Assembly: GCA_017302795.1 (NCBI GenBank)
Contig: JAFLCB010000003.1
Coordinates: 152,650 to 216,649, forward strand
Length of the DNA stretch: 64,000 bases
Reading direction: 5' to 3'
Origin: Deltaproteobacteria bacterium
Lineage (GTDB): Bacteria; Bdellovibrionota; Bdellovibrionia; Bdellovibrionales; JAMPXM01
A program made the position numbers and the translations under genes. This document shows positions 39,391 through 44,277 of the stretch, in pieces. A model generated the notes under the pieces. That model searched no databases. It worked only from the letters and a program-made list of their open reading frames with translations, and had not been told where the DNA came from. How positions within the stretch are numbered: the first letter of the stretch is position 1; the number at the start of each line of letters is the position of its first letter.

Positions 39391-39975
39391 TTAATCAATA
39401 CTCGACTCGATAAATGAGATTGCCTGCGGAAGCTTCGAAAGAGGAATGCGAAAGATCGTCGGCTTGCTTTCCGACGACGTTAAATATCCCTGCCAAGCAT
39501 GTTCGTGCACCTTAACTTCATAGCTAAGCTTCTGCAGAAACTGGAGGCGCTTAGAATTGCTCAGCGCTGTTCCAAAAAGAAAATCAGTTGGCTTATTGAG
39601 GCTAAGCAAAAATCGGAATACTTCGGCGCGGAGCTTCATATTCAGGCCACACCCCTGATGGCTTTTCGCGGTGGCAGCGCGCGATAGCACATAGCAGGGT
39701 AGAGCCGAGAAAGGGTCGTTCGCCGGAAATTGCAACATCGTCTCGAAGCGACCCGCGGTCGAAACGCGAGTGAGCCGGACAGTCGAAACAAGTCGTCCCT
39801 CCGCGAGTGCGCCGAAATGATAACTATCATCATCGTGAAGATTCCAGCTTAGTCCATCAGGAGTTACGTTTGAAATAAACTTAAGATCGTAGGATTGTTG
39901 TCTAAGCGTCGCGATTTGCTGCTTGAGTTCTTCGGTCAGAAAAAGCTTGGTTATGACTGTTGAATTCACGATCAA
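39391..39975 (-). CDS. GNAT-fold acyltransferase-like protein (FeeM/autoinducer-synthase type possible)
   Basis: 194 residues from TTG 39975 or GTG 39969. It has a strand pattern of acyltransferases: HFGALAEGRLVSTVRLTRV, then CYVLSRAATAKSHQGCGLNMKLRAEVFRFLL, in which SHQGCG stands where the acyl-CoA-binding R/Q-x-x-G-x-G loop is expected (first residue Ser). The spacing of VRLTRVS and LSRAA resembles N-acyl amino acid synthases and acyl-homoserine-lactone synthases rather than typical GNATs. Substrate unknown. It lies 67 bases upstream of livH in the same direction, facing away from the biosynthetic-looking operon on its other side. Confidence 0.55.
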   Translation of the reverse strand: MIVNSTVITKLFLTEELKQQIATLRQQSYDLKFISNVTPDGLSWNLHDDDSYHFGALAEGRLVSTVRLTRVSTAGRFETMLQFPANDPFSALPCYVLSRAATAKSHQGCGLNMKLRAEVFRFLLSLNKPTDFLFGTALSNSKRLQFLQKLSYEVKVHEHAWQGYLTSSESKPTIFRIPLSKLPQAISFIESSID

Positions 39976-40502
39976 AATCTATCAGGACTTCCAGATAAAA
40001 AAAAGCAGATGTTTTTGCGTTTTTGAGCGAACCAGAGAACTGAGCATTCGGTCAACTTTCGGTTCGGCGCAAACAAGTAGGAGCGGGAAGTAAAACCAAA
40101 AGTTCACACCCAAAAATAGAAAACGCCTAGCTGGAATACTAACGTCGCGAGCCGAAATACAGCCCATAAGCTTCTAATGATTTTCAAAAGCTAGAATGGG
40201 GCGAAGATCAGTACGACGAAGCCGAGAGCAAAATTGAAATTCGGTCTTTCGGTTATTGTCATGCAATGTTCGGAAAAGCTTCGATCGCAAACTGGGCCCT
40301 GCAATCGGCTTTCGCGCAACAGGAAATTAATTAATCTAGGAGTGCAAATTTCCTCGGCACTTTTGGATGTTATGGGCGTTGAAGCGTCTAGAGGGGCTTG
40401 GGAATATTGAGTTTTCATGGACGACGATAAACAAGGATATTTTAAATTCAAAGTTTGATTTCACAACAATATCTGACAAAGGTCCGGTGCCAGTTGTTTT
40501 TG

Positions 40503-40550
40503 GAAGATCGAGCAAAGATCCACGCCCGTTGTGGGCGATGGCCGATCTTC
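40503..40550. other. Nested inverted repeat (possible structured RNA or operator)
   Basis: Outer arms GAAGATCG/CGATCTTC (8 bp) enclose inner arms CGCCC/GGGCG. It is in the non-coding gap, about 230 bases before the first gene of the accessory operon. No family recognised. Confidence 0.4.
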
Positions 40551-40612
40551 TGCGATTCGGGATCCGCCAAGCTTACTTGGTTGAGGGAAGGTGTCCCAAA
40601 GTTAGCTGCAGC

Positions 40613-40641
40613 TAGACGTTTGTATTGATTTGATACGTCTA
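40613..40641. promoter_or_regulatory. Candidate operator: 7-bp inverted repeat
   Basis: TAGACGT, 15 bases, ACGTCTA. The perfect 7-bp dyad of 29 bases total lies about 140 bases before the accessory operon and has the size of a dimeric repressor site. No binding protein can be named. Confidence 0.35.
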
Positions 40642-40783
40642 AAGAGGTGTACTTTTACGAAGACGATTACAAATCAATGTATGCAAACGATTTGAATGAT
40701 AGTGTGAGGGTGATTGATGTCTAGGCGTCATTCGGTTATCGTTTAAAGAGTGAATAGTACCCTCGGAAATGGGGCATCTTTGT

Positions 40784-41206
40784 ATGTTTGAAAAACGATA
40801 CTTAAATAGACGAAATTTAATGGCTTATGGCCTTGGCCTTCTTGCTATCAAGTTGCCCCTCAGTAAAATTGCAGCCGAGCCATCGGCAAGTGCTGTTGTC
40901 GATCTAAAGATTGATTTTCCTGAGGGATATACGATGGAAAATTATGAATTCGATGTTCCGGTTTGGGCGAATAATGAAAAGGTTCGAGAATACATCCGCT
41001 CTTTCGTCAGTACCGGTCAGCTAGTCGAATACAAAAAGGTTGGCGTTGAGCGCGGAGTGAACTACCGCTTCGTTTTCAAAACCCCTGAAGATCTTAAATC
41101 TTTCGTATTAGGAGTCCGCAACCAACAGCTTGTCGATTTCGAGAGGCGTTCAAGTCGTGGCCTCACGACGAAGATGTTTGTGAGCGGCACCGAAATTAAA
41201 TGCTAG
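40784..41206 (+). CDS. Unknown exported protein, first gene of the accessory operon
   Basis: 140 residues from ATG 40784 (ATG 40769 would add five). The N-terminus has two Arg before a hydrophobic stretch (NRRNLMAYGLGLLAIKLPL), similar to a Tat or Sec signal, with AAEPSA as a possible cleavage site. The mature part is a small mixed alpha/beta domain (VPVWANNEKVREYIRSFVSTGQL, FKTPEDLKSFVLGVRNQQ) ending in a single Cys. No family recognised. Its stop overlaps the next gene by seven bases. It could be a secreted partner of the operon's enzymes or a substrate; the sequence does not decide. Confidence 0.65.
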   Translation: MFEKRYLNRRNLMAYGLGLLAIKLPLSKIAAEPSASAVVDLKIDFPEGYTMENYEFDVPVWANNEKVREYIRSFVSTGQLVEYKKVGVERGVNYRFVFKTPEDLKSFVLGVRNQQLVDFERRSSRGLTTKMFVSGTEIKC

Positions 41207-41802
41207 AGGACGGAGCCCATCGGGCGAATGGTCTTTCACTTGAACAACAAACTCACTTACAGCTGCTGCTGGCAGACCTTCCACAAAATAAGAGATTCAA
41301 TCACGAAAAGTATTTTAGAAATGATCCACTTTTCGATCTCTACTTCGTTTCGGAAAGTAGCGAAATTAGATACTGTTTGGGGATCGGCCGCTGGCGACAA
41401 ATGCCCTACTTCTCGCTCCTCGATTTTCGAAATACTCTTTCCGACACGCCATTCCGTCGTCGAGACCGCAAACTAATTAACTCTTTGTTCTCCACCGCTT
41501 TCGTCGACCTTCATTCTGAAGGTAAGTTTACTTTTGTGTATGCGACCCGGGTTCGTCCTTTCCCCGTTCGCCACCTCAAGTCCTCTGGAGTTCTTGCTCC
41601 TGTTCGCGGTGTTCCGATTTTCGATCGCTACGATTTTGCCATCGAGGCCGAAGTTCCAATAGGCGGTGTGCCACAGTTTCCCTACCAAGAAGCCTTAATT
41701 AGATTGATGTCACGGTCCTTCGATTATTGGATAAAGCGAGGTACATTAAAGCTCAGCTACATGGCGGAATATCTTCCGTCATTGGCAAAGGAAAAACCGT
41801 GA
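41200..41802 (+). CDS. Unknown protein, second gene of the accessory operon
   Basis: 200 residues, no membrane helix or signal peptide. It has alternating strands and helices (LFDLYFVSESSEIRYCLGIG, KFTFVYATRVRPFPV, YDFAIEAEVPIGG), which loosely recalls an acyltransferase (GNAT/FeeM) fold, but no acyl-CoA loop can be pointed to. It overlaps the genes on both sides (start inside the 3' end of the previous gene; stop TGA overlapping the GTG of the next), so it is almost certainly expressed with them. Confidence 0.6.
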   Translation: MLEDGAHRANGLSLEQQTHLQLLLADLPQNKRFNHEKYFRNDPLFDLYFVSESSEIRYCLGIGRWRQMPYFSLLDFRNTLSDTPFRRRDRKLINSLFSTAFVDLHSEGKFTFVYATRVRPFPVRHLKSSGVLAPVRGVPIFDRYDFAIEAEVPIGGVPQFPYQEALIRLMSRSFDYWIKRGTLKLSYMAEYLPSLAKEKP

Positions 41803-42596
41803 ACAACGCGAAATCCTTAAACACAGATCGCAGCCCCGAGTTTAGCGATCATCTGTATGCCCCTCACACTCATTGGGTGAAACCTGCTTTGAAGTGGATG
41901 AAACTTCCACCGCTCTATTCCTTTGATCTAGAAGAGGCACGCCGCGAATTCGAGTTGATTAGGAAAGACTTTCCATTGAAACCGTTTGAGGTTTCTTCGA
42001 AATCGGGAAGAACGCGACCGCGACTAAGCTATCGCGGCCTCGGGTTAACTGCGCGCGCGAACGCAGAAGAGCCGCTGTATGATGCTTTGTCGCTGTATGG
42101 CCCAGGAGATAAGAAGCTTTCGATCTTCCACACATTTGAAAAAGTGTCGGATAAAAAAGAACCAGATGAACGAGTTATCGAAACGTTAGATGAAAGTGGT
42201 TTCAATCAAGAGACTCAAGCCTGTCGTCCGTATTTTTCTAAATTGCTGGAAAAGTTCAAATCGCCGACCACGAAGGTGCGATTTTTGGAAATGACTCCCG
42301 GAGGATATATTCCACCGCACGTCGATTTTCCGTTTTACCACGGAATCCGTGTTCATGCGTGTTTGTATTCCAATCCCGATGTTGTTTGGGAAGTTGAGGG
42401 CGAGCAGTTTACCATTCCTTGCGATGGGAATTTCTATTGGTTCGATACCGGCCGGTATCATGCCGTTCGGAATAACAGTGATGAAAGCCGAGTTGTGTTC
42501 TCGGTTAACTTAACCCCGTATTTTGATCGCACCGGCCAGCCGCGTTTGGCACCGTCTACCGACCTCATTGAACTTATTCGCAGCGGCGGTGTTTAA
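41799..42596 (+). CDS. Fe(II)/2-oxoglutarate hydroxylase, Asp/Asn beta-hydroxylase-like
   Basis: 265 residues from GTG 41799 (AAAGGA about 7 bases upstream; the frame is open to 41727). The C-terminal cupin carries an iron site PPHVDFPFYHG (His-x-Asp) with the distal His in FDTGRYHAVRNNS, followed by Arg in ESRVVFSVNL, as in aspartyl/asparaginyl beta-hydroxylases that bind 2-oxoglutarate. The N-terminal 90 residues are of unknown role. Substrate (free amino acid, peptide or acylated amino acid) is unknown. The stop overlaps the desaturase ATG by one base. Confidence 0.75.
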   Translation: MNNAKSLNTDRSPEFSDHLYAPHTHWVKPALKWMKLPPLYSFDLEEARREFELIRKDFPLKPFEVSSKSGRTRPRLSYRGLGLTARANAEEPLYDALSLYGPGDKKLSIFHTFEKVSDKKEPDERVIETLDESGFNQETQACRPYFSKLLEKFKSPTTKVRFLEMTPGGYIPPHVDFPFYHGIRVHACLYSNPDVVWEVEGEQFTIPCDGNFYWFDTGRYHAVRNNSDESRVVFSVNLTPYFDRTGQPRLAPSTDLIELIRSGGV

Positions 42597-43384
42597 TGGG
42601 AGTCCTGTCTCGCCTTCCTTTTAATGTTAGAACTTTGCAGGGGCTCTGCTTGATTTTGGGTGTCGGTTTTTTGGTTCTCAATCCTGACCGGCTTCATCTT
42701 TTGGGCTTTGGTTTTCTAGTTTACGCAGTGTTTTTGATTTTTGGCGTGGCGATCGGCTATCACAGAGGGCTTTCGCATAGGCTTTTGGATCTTGAGTCGC
42801 CGCTTGCATGGTTTTCTCTCGGCGTCGGCACATTGTCATCGTTAGGTAAGCCGGTCGAGTGGGCTCTCATTCATCGTCTTCACCATCAACACTCGGATGA
42901 AACAGCTGATCCGCATTCTCCTGTGCAGCAGGGATTTTGGACGGTTTTTCTTAATCGCTGGCGATTGCCGGCCGAGACCGCGAAACCTCGGATAAGTTTA
43001 GTTCGAGATCTTGTTGCATCAAGAAACGTTCAGTTCTATCAAAAGCGGTACTATGCAGTCATAGCGGTTTATGTTCTTCTCCTTGCTGCCGCCGCCGGCA
43101 TGCCGGGCGTCATATTCGGCTATTGCTGGCCGGTGGTATTAAGTGTGCTTGCGACTTCGCTGGTAAACTCCGTTTGTCACGTGGGTGGCGTACCACGTGA
43201 TTCGTTTTGGATCGCACTTTTCACCTTTGGAGAGGGGATTCATGGTCGCCACCACCTTGAGCCCAAGACCATCAATCTTAGCTACGCACAATACTTTGAC
43301 CTATCAGGCTGGTTACTCGCTAAACTGTCGGTACGTCACGAAGGAGTCGCATGGGCAACACGGCGAAAAAATCCGAAGCAGTAA
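42596..43384 (+). CDS. Fatty-acid (acyl-CoA) desaturase
   Basis: 262 residues with four membrane-spanning stretches and the histidine boxes of the di-iron desaturases: HRGLSH, HRLHHQHSDETADPH and GRHHLEP. Spacing fits delta-9-type acyl-CoA desaturases, although the protein is short. It introduces a double bond in a fatty acyl chain at the inner membrane. Its place inside a tight operon with a hydroxylase, unknown proteins and a radical SAM enzyme suggests a special acyl product rather than bulk lipid; this is inference. The 3' end overlaps the next gene by 34 bases. Confidence 0.88.
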   Translation: MGVLSRLPFNVRTLQGLCLILGVGFLVLNPDRLHLLGFGFLVYAVFLIFGVAIGYHRGLSHRLLDLESPLAWFSLGVGTLSSLGKPVEWALIHRLHHQHSDETADPHSPVQQGFWTVFLNRWRLPAETAKPRISLVRDLVASRNVQFYQKRYYAVIAVYVLLLAAAAGMPGVIFGYCWPVVLSVLATSLVNSVCHVGGVPRDSFWIALFTFGEGIHGRHHLEPKTINLSYAQYFDLSGWLLAKLSVRHEGVAWATRRKNPKQ

Positions 43385-44277
43385 ATTTGGGTGAGGAACC
43401 GACCTTACATTATTTTGAAGTCGAGCCCGAGCAGAGCCGGTTTTACACCATCGGAGTAGATGTCACGCATCGATGCAATATGGAGTGTGCCAATTGCTAT
43501 AGCCCAATTCGCAACCTGCCCGATGTTTCAAAGGAAGATCTCATCAAGTTTTTTTCTCGACTTGGGCGAAAGACTGAAGTGCGCCTGACGGGTGGAGAGC
43601 CGACGCTTCGGTCAGATCTTCCAGAGTTGATTCGCGCGATCAATCAGTATGGCCACCGGGCTGCGATTATGACAAATGGTTTGCGCCTTGCTGATCGAGA
43701 GTATGCTCAATCGCTTTTTGATGCTGGATTAAAATTCGTGTGTATCTCGGTGAACGGCGCAGATGACGACACTGTCTACAAAAAGACCGATGGAATTGCC
43801 TGTGCAGAAAAAAAAATGCGCGCGCTTCAGAACTGCGCTGAAATTGGTTTTTTTCTCAACATGAACTGCATTTTGATCAAGGGTGTAAATGAGCACATTC
43901 CTGCGCGTTTGAATCAAGTCTTGCGCGACATGAAAGTGAACGGAGTTCTAAGATTCCGCAACATCGGAAAACTTGGGCGCTACATGCAGCAAGACAACTT
44001 CACCTTTGATGAAATGATTGGCCTTGTGACAAAGGCGTTTGGCGTCGATCGCGCACTTGCCGATGAATCACACAAAGTGAATGGTTATGAGGAAGAGCAC
44101 AACGTCTTGTTCCCTGTAGATCCGAAGAAGAAGTTCAGCACGACTTGGATAAAAATCACCGACTGGCGACCAAATGAAAATTCGATCCCAGATCCCGACA
44201 GCGCTCGCCGTGGTCGAATGACAAAAGACTTCAAAGTCGCGCCATTTTTCGAACACGCAAAACTCAACGGCTACTAG
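43351..44277 (+). CDS. Radical SAM enzyme of unknown substrate
   Basis: 308 residues. The iron-sulphur motif is CNMECANC (CxxxCxxC), followed by LTGGEPTLRSDL (GGE motif for SAM), SVNGADDDTV and NCILIKGVNE, a normal half-barrel. The C-terminus has no extra Cys cluster, so no SPASM domain. Sequence style is that of MoaA/peptide-modifying radical SAM enzymes, but the substrate is unknown. ATG 43351 with AAGGAG 8 bases upstream lies within the desaturase end. It is the last gene of the operon and ends 14 bases from the convergent livK. Confidence 0.88.
   Translation: MGNTAKKSEAVNLGEEPTLHYFEVEPEQSRFYTIGVDVTHRCNMECANCYSPIRNLPDVSKEDLIKFFSRLGRKTEVRLTGGEPTLRSDLPELIRAINQYGHRAAIMTNGLRLADREYAQSLFDAGLKFVCISVNGADDDTVYKKTDGIACAEKKMRALQNCAEIGFFLNMNCILIKGVNEHIPARLNQVLRDMKVNGVLRFRNIGKLGRYMQQDNFTFDEMIGLVTKAFGVDRALADESHKVNGYEEEHNVLFPVDPKKKFSTTWIKITDWRPNENSIPDPDSARRGRMTKDFKVAPFFEHAKLNGY

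Follow-up and report, generated by a model that had tools for sequence, protein, structure and literature searches.

Five overlapping genes in a 64,000-nucleotide stretch from a Deltaproteobacteria bacterium of the order Bdellovibrionales (contig JAFLCB010000003.1, positions 152,650 to 216,649, part of a 4.23-Mb draft genome; the whole stretch is called the window below) are a real co-inherited unit that moves horizontally. The unit encodes a small protein, a GNAT-fold protein, a hydroxylase, a desaturase and a radical SAM enzyme, and sits between two genes that we take to be livH and livJ, the latter encoding a liv binding protein. As a mobile unit it could well direct the synthesis of a lipid-like small molecule, an oxidised fatty-acyl amino acid or lipid, a proposal that we stop just short of calling probable. 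What is new is the link to phages, together with the way in which related islands replace one another at a single chromosomal site. The five genes are as follows:

40784..41206, plus strand: P1, a small protein of 140 amino acids (aa) whose hydrophobic N-terminal segment contains RR and looks Tat-like by eye
41200..41802, plus strand: P2, 200 aa, a divergent GNAT-fold acyltransferase by its AlphaFold 2 (AF2) model and Foldseek, proposed to be an N-acyltransferase
41799..42596, plus strand, GTG start: HYD, an Fe(II)/2-oxoglutarate hydroxylase of the Asp_Arg_Hydrox family (PF05118, E 8.7e-13)
42596..43384, plus strand: DES, a membrane fatty-acid-desaturase family protein (PF00487, E 2.1e-13; three His boxes)
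43351..44277, plus strand: rSAM, a radical SAM enzyme with a single cluster and a C-terminal motif peculiar to its family (PF04055, E 3.1e-22)

Open reading frame (ORF) analysis of the window gives successive overlaps of 7, 4, 1 and 34 bases, in agreement with the initial annotation, and overlaps of this kind suggest that the five genes form one transcript. The Asp_Arg_Hydrox, FA_desaturase and Radical_SAM matches all exceed the curated Pfam cut-offs. The HxD...H iron site, the desaturase His boxes and the CxxxCxxC cluster recorded in the same annotation are all present: the His boxes of DES read HRGLSH, HRLHH and HGRHH, H174, D176, H221 and R231 of HYD are invariant in an alignment of six rows, and C42, C46 and C49 of rSAM are invariant in one of eight rows. 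The Pfam scan gave no accepted match for P1 or P2, and P1 has no match in NCBIfam or PHROG either.

Co-inheritance is most complete in a genome of another genus (G012), in which the order P1-P2-HYD-DES-rSAM is kept and is followed by a gene like that for holo-acyl carrier protein (holo-ACP) synthase, a family label that rests on a Pfam check of a virus member; the set stands away from this genome's own uninterrupted liv locus. In the congener G002, P2-HYD-DES-rSAM lie on one contig, and P1 and the start of P2 at the end of a second; in G001, DES-rSAM stand beside livJ and P2 beside livH, with a contig break between. Orthologues of DES lie between HYD and rSAM in G002 (62%) and G012 (42%) and 5' of rSAM in G001 (52%), and relatives of P1 lie directly 5' of P2 in G002 (54%), G012 (36%, E 8e-22) and a further congener, G004 (29%, pairwise E 2e-5). 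Weak P1 candidates are found in G085 (blastp E 0.10) and G052 (blastp E 1.7); one in G278 was picked by eye, and the P1 profile gave no match to it. The view that the five genes are one system had been made to depend on whether their homologues keep company elsewhere; they do, all five in the same order in G012 and in part in G001 and G002, and that objection is removed.

The families are also rare. Among 98 relatives searched, the HYD subfamily (E<=1e-40) has six copies in four genomes, every one of them no more than 1.7 kb from an rSAM-family copy, and the rSAM family (E<=1e-70) is present in six genomes. A search of 368 genomes from the same phylum finds the HYD subfamily (E<=1e-25) in 4 and P2 (E<=1e-6) in 9. 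Near P2, on its contig, DES is found in eight of these nine genomes and a HYD-family protein in seven (G000, G002, G012, G052, G085, G004 and G278); of the remaining P2 genomes, G001 is truncated there by the end of the contig, and G311 is represented by a 5.5-kb contig with DES and no HYD. Each broad family is common by itself, as would be expected of unrelated housekeeping genes that are neighbours by chance, but this explanation is scarcely credible, being contradicted by the synteny in G012, the rarity of P2 and of the HYD subfamily, their co-location, and the empty or swapped sites described below. The genome that contains the window has a second, divergent set on contig C1 (L067:1309-7126), with HYD, a rhodanese-like protein, a membrane protein, rSAM (43%), an enoyl-CoA-hydratase-like protein and a desaturase-like protein. 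G278 has a large related island (L191), in which genes for P2, HYD and three desaturases are accompanied by those for a PP-loop-like protein and a class I/II aminotransferase.

At the insertion site itself, livH and livJ are directly adjacent in G003, of the same genus, and in G005, G008, G009, G010, G011 and G012, of the same family. The congeners G001 and G002 have a window-type set at the same liv genes, as far as their broken contigs show, and G004 has a different, related set in the livH-livJ gap: a fusion of a fatty acid (FA) hydroxylase with a HYD-type domain, two desaturases, a B12-type rSAM, one protein each that resembles P1 and P2, and a rhodanese-like gene on the opposite strand. 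In the fusion (L164:2824-4338), a PF04116 fatty acid hydroxylase domain is joined to one of the Asp/Arg hydroxylase type (HYD profile E 1.7e-12). In G006 the gap holds two ORFs that match none of the families; the G007 site was left out of the count. Taken together, these arrangements indicate that the liv locus is an exchange site for related islands. Three tandem copies of the liv binding-protein gene occupy the site in G011 (L170).

P2 models as a divergent GNAT acyltransferase fold. Structure prediction, which the initial annotation recommended for the 140- and 200-residue proteins, was informative for the larger one, whose AF2 model (pLDDT 82.7, pTM 0.81) has RimI as its top Foldseek match in the PDB (E 4.0e-6) and aligns in VIA with GCN5/RimI/AAC rows (best Z 10.5, rmsd 3.8, 153 aligned residues); the P1 model (pLDDT 50) is too poor to search with. 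The P2 profile finds no match among PDB sequences, and hhalign shows no relation between it and either F2, a family recurrent near rSAM on virus contigs, or P6, a GNAT-like protein encoded upstream of the unit. The CoA-loop motif [RQ]xxGx[GA] is not in the window P2 (P0002) and is missing from four of the five P2 rows; in the fifth the match falls inside helix 3. Lack of the motif would fit an acyl-ACP donor and proves nothing about it, because the motif is also missing from nearly all rows of F14, P6 and F2 and thus does not separate families.

The nearest PDB entries to HYD are 7v4f, named Beta-hydroxylase (E 1e-6), and, more weakly, an L-proline cis-4-hydroxylase (0.009), so that an acyl chain and an amino acid are both possible targets. 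The best PDB profile matches of rSAM are tetraether lipid synthase (7tol, E 2.4e-27) and MoaA (2fb2, E 1.4e-21), and among the NCBIfam models shown none was reached at its cut-off. The C-terminal half of rSAM carries the family motif WIKITDW...IPDP.S.RRGR.T...APFFEH, with K268, T270, D271, W272, D281, R287, R289, T291, F300 and E301 invariant in the eight rows; these residues may bind substrate. The same half contains no invariant Cys in these rows and therefore no SPASM-type cluster. A MoaA/PqqE-type enzyme with auxiliary clusters was rejected on the missing conserved C-terminal Cys and on MoaA models that fall far below their cut-off. Against plasmid and phage records, rSAM (P0005) finds only radical SAM relatives below 60% identity, several annotated as MoaA, and HYD (P0003) finds in phage records a single weak match, in Pelagibacter phage Mosig.

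Some of these resemblances would suit a membrane-lipid tailoring operon, which alters the acyl chain of an existing aminolipid, lipid A-like molecule or phospholipid and makes no new backbone: HYD matches the LpxO NCBIfam equivalog weakly (E 9.5e-5), a desaturase is present, HYD is fused to FA_hydroxylase in G004, and the nearest PDB entry to rSAM is tetraether lipid synthase. We consider this unlikely. The LpxO match, at 21.6 bits, is far below the cut-off of 500, and the GNAT fold, like the presence in related sets of PP-loop-like proteins, ACP and holo-ACP synthase, suggests building rather than tailoring alone.

The rSAM and HYD families are rare in bacterial genomes, but many IMG/VR virus contigs carry both. 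A search of genome contigs and IMG/VR contigs with the C-terminal half of rSAM finds 13 genome loci and 62 virus-contig loci. Scans covering 40 and 47 records of these 62 loci detect the Gp23 capsid gene (PF07068) in 7 of the 40 (L085, L089, L099, L105, L123, L143 and L144) and the terminase gene (PF03237) in 8 of the 47, including L089, L099, L123, L143 and L144; some carriers of rSAM are thus true T4-type phages. That the other IMG/VR contigs are viral is unproven, and this applies to the long L090 and L091, in which neither capsid nor terminase was matched with the two families tried. The L090/L091 set is dense, with ACP, a GNAT-like protein, three desaturases, HYD, rSAM, extra rSAMs, a Rieske oxygenase and PP-loop-like proteins. 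The PP-loop-like proteins (F13) have an SGGxDS motif by eye and a weak NAD_synthase match (E 8.9e-5).

Counts within 5 kb of rSAM cover 60 virus loci, as L111 and L145 (like the bacterial L077 and L079) had no rSAM ORF that passed the filter. HYD is present in 32 of them, DES in 18, ACP in 14, and a HYD-, F4-, F6- or TauD-type protein in 46, with TauD assigned by Pfam and F4 and F6 taken as oxygenases by eye (F6 has one sub-threshold Asp_Arg_Hydrox match). The 14 ACP-bearing loci contain DES in 13, the GNAT-like F14 in 12 and holo-ACP synthase (AcpS) in 6; one ACP and one AcpS were confirmed by Pfam. For 47 loci that were left after 13 near-duplicates had been picked out by eye, sequence within 4 kb of rSAM (335 kb in total) was compared with sequence farther away (365 kb): ACP is found 11 times near and 0 times far, AcpS 4 and 0, F14 9 and 0, and HYD 25 and 10. 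The families F2, F4, F6, F13 and F14 were chosen for their recurrence in these loci, which makes their enrichment partly circular; the HYD and DES models were built from bacterial sequences. A separate search with HYD as the query recovers 14 virus loci, with rSAM adjoining in 11; of the other three, the near-copies L150 and L151 show no rSAM over 6 kb, and L157 is truncated by the end of its contig. In a tree of 66 rSAM rows, the five window-type Bdellovibrionota rows group together (97/99), as do five from Alpha- and Gammaproteobacteria (99/99); the tree does not order the deep branches and so gives no direction of transfer between phage and bacterium.

In the five Alpha/Gammaproteobacteria loci, rSAM and the F40 GNAT lie within 5 kb of each other, with HYD between them in four. 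The trio GNAT-HYD-rSAM is followed in L078, L080, L081 and L083 by a giant protein of 1365-2778 aa, which in L078, the one checked, is RTX-type by Pfam; the hosts are an uncultured Pseudomonadales bacterium, an uncultured Rhodospirillales bacterium, Labrenzia and Roseibium. This arrangement favours modification of ribosomal peptides or proteins, with rSAM and the hydroxylase acting on a peptide, on P1 or on these giant proteins. Both enzyme types also occur in the proteusin pathway, in which, in the sections of PMC9259500 that treat it, EreI belongs to the Asp/Asn beta-hydroxylase family, EreD is an rSAM epimerase and EreB is a B12 rSAM methyltransferase. Such a role is nevertheless improbable. 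No conserved short ORF is found among 31 unclaimed small ORFs at five Bdellovibrionota loci, and the recurrent ones among 118 small ORFs at 16 virus loci are groups of 2-4 from close relatives. Unclaimed ORFs of 20-75 aa near rSAM include no proteusin-like precursor, longer ones having been outside the search. The rSAM, with no invariant C-terminal Cys, would lack a SPASM-type cluster, and ACP and the desaturases would be left without explanation.

Two further features lie 5' of the unit in the window:

39391..39975, minus strand: P6, a GNAT-like protein with a weak, sub-cut-off Pfam match to FeeM (N-acyl amino acid synthase), loosely associated
40409..40588, plus strand: C-terminal piece, all that is left of a rhodanese-like companion gene, recognised by similarity to L195:1253-2344

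The P6 gene is indeed oriented away from the five, as first annotated. Its Pfam matches, to FeeM (E 3e-4) and Acetyltransf_1 (E 0.011), are both below cut-off, and relatives are found only in G052 among the loci examined, one of them within the operon (L065:13809-14438, 25% identity); P6 belongs to the unit only loosely. The remnant is 54.8% identical over 62 aa (E 2.9e-15) to a 364-aa rhodanese-like protein whose intact gene (L195:1253-2344; PF00581, E 1.6e-6) precedes P1 in G002. Distant rhodanese-like relatives are found in the G004 island and in the second cluster of the window genome.

If the product is an oxidised fatty-acyl amino acid or lipid, P2 would join a fatty acyl chain to an amino acid through its amine, or to some other amine, with acyl-ACP as the probable donor, in the bacterium on the host's own ACP. 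DES would desaturate the chain, HYD would hydroxylate the chain or the amino acid, and rSAM would alter the same molecule further by radical chemistry; P1, probably Tat-exported, would handle the product outside the cytoplasm. An acyl chain is suggested by the neighbouring desaturases, fatty acid hydroxylase, ACP and AcpS, and an amine or amide by the GNAT fold and PP-loop-like proteins. In other islands the window-type rSAM is absent or replaced (B12-type rSAM, fatty acid hydroxylase, PP-loop-like protein), and the product would accordingly vary. Of the two products first suggested, the modified acylated amino acid fits the ACP, holo-ACP synthase, desaturases, FA hydroxylase fusion and PP-loop-like neighbours seen elsewhere, whereas the modified peptide is disfavoured by the lack of a conserved short ORF.

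Several observations weigh against an acylated product. The window set has no ACP or holo-ACP synthase, neither P2 nor P6 matches PF13444 (OlsB type) at E up to 1, and P6 scores 21.1 bits against the FeeM model PF21926, for which the cut-off is 27, with one of three family members matching. ACP-bearing virus sets are a minority (14/60), many others having TauD-type oxygenases and the unassigned F2. F14 is only weakly related to P2 (hhalign probability 58%), DES is mildly enriched near rSAM (16 near and 11 far in the 47 loci), and DES (P0004) as a single-sequence query finds no relative in virus contigs. In the four Alpha/Gammaproteobacteria loci, rSAM stands beside a giant protein, not lipid genes.

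ACP and desaturases together could instead indicate a polyyne- or alkyne-like pathway, in which desaturases act on an ACP-bound chain, as in JamABC, and the other enzymes decorate it. As far as PMC8406139 describes them, JamABC are an acyl-AMP ligase, a desaturase and an ACP, and polyyne clusters add two desaturases, a thioesterase and a rubredoxin. A desaturase and ACP occur together in 13 of the 60 virus loci, three desaturases stand beside ACP in L148 and two in L153, and L148 also has AcpS. However, a non-exhaustive search of the ACP loci revealed neither a fatty acyl-AMP ligase nor a thioesterase or rubredoxin, and a ligase search that was not systematic gave an AMP-binding match only in an L108-type set. 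The window has a single desaturase, and rSAM and Fe/2OG enzymes are present, unlike in JamABC. This pathway is very improbable.

An acylated amine also invites comparison with FeeM clusters, which make N-acyl tyrosines and stieleriacines and, as far as PMC11631085 and PMC12479983 describe them, combine a GNAT-type N-acyltransferase, an ACP-bound donor and adjacent tailoring genes. OlsB and FeeM are grouped as N-acyltransferases in the relevant part of PMC11631085, in which OlsB uses acyl-ACP and ACP binding by FeeM appears through a cited title. P2 shares the GNAT fold (VIA Z up to 10.5 over 153 residues) and P6 weakly matches the FeeM profile, but P2 has no PF21926 match, P6 is below cut-off, and the tailoring genes named in these sources are of the ThiF and nitroreductase families, not rSAM, hydroxylase or desaturase. 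The ACP and AcpS neighbours in virus sets bear on a FeeM-type link to ACP circumstantially, and the window set has neither. The ornithine-lipid pathway (OlsB, OlsE) likewise combines an acyl-ACP N-acyltransferase with hydroxylases acting on the acyl chain or head group. OlsC is another of its hydroxylases, and the G004 fusion unites two hydroxylases of these types. By contrast, none of the six window proteins has a PF13444 N-acyltransferase match or, among its Pfam matches, an OlsA-type O-acyltransferase, and rSAM and the desaturase are extra. Pelagimyophage radical-SAM cassettes and core Asp/Asn beta-hydroxylase are a close system, compared here by description and not by rSAM family; the parts of those descriptions at hand give no function, ACP or GNAT association, or link to bacterial chromosomes. 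The island does not have the full set of defining features of any of the FeeM, Ols, LpxO or ribosomal-peptide systems. The gene set was not found described in the open-licence literature on phage acyl-ACP/desaturase/rSAM sets and Bdellovibrio N-acyl amino acids, which does not imply its absence from print.

More broadly, and more doubtfully, exchangeable biosynthetic islands common to bacterial chromosomes and T4-type phages might make lipid or acyl-amino-acid metabolites that are tailored by oxidation, some phages having nearly complete pathways with their own ACP and holo-ACP synthase. If this is true, phages may use the products in competition, superinfection exclusion or membrane remodelling. 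Standard names would hardly reveal shared pathways of this kind, because P2 has no Pfam match and rSAM no NCBIfam match at cut-off; the window offers a small, cloneable five-gene system for a direct product search. If the reading is right, tailed phages and Bdellovibrionota have lipid-like natural-product pathways in common, and the swapping of related islands at one chromosomal site suggests a locus under diversifying pressure.

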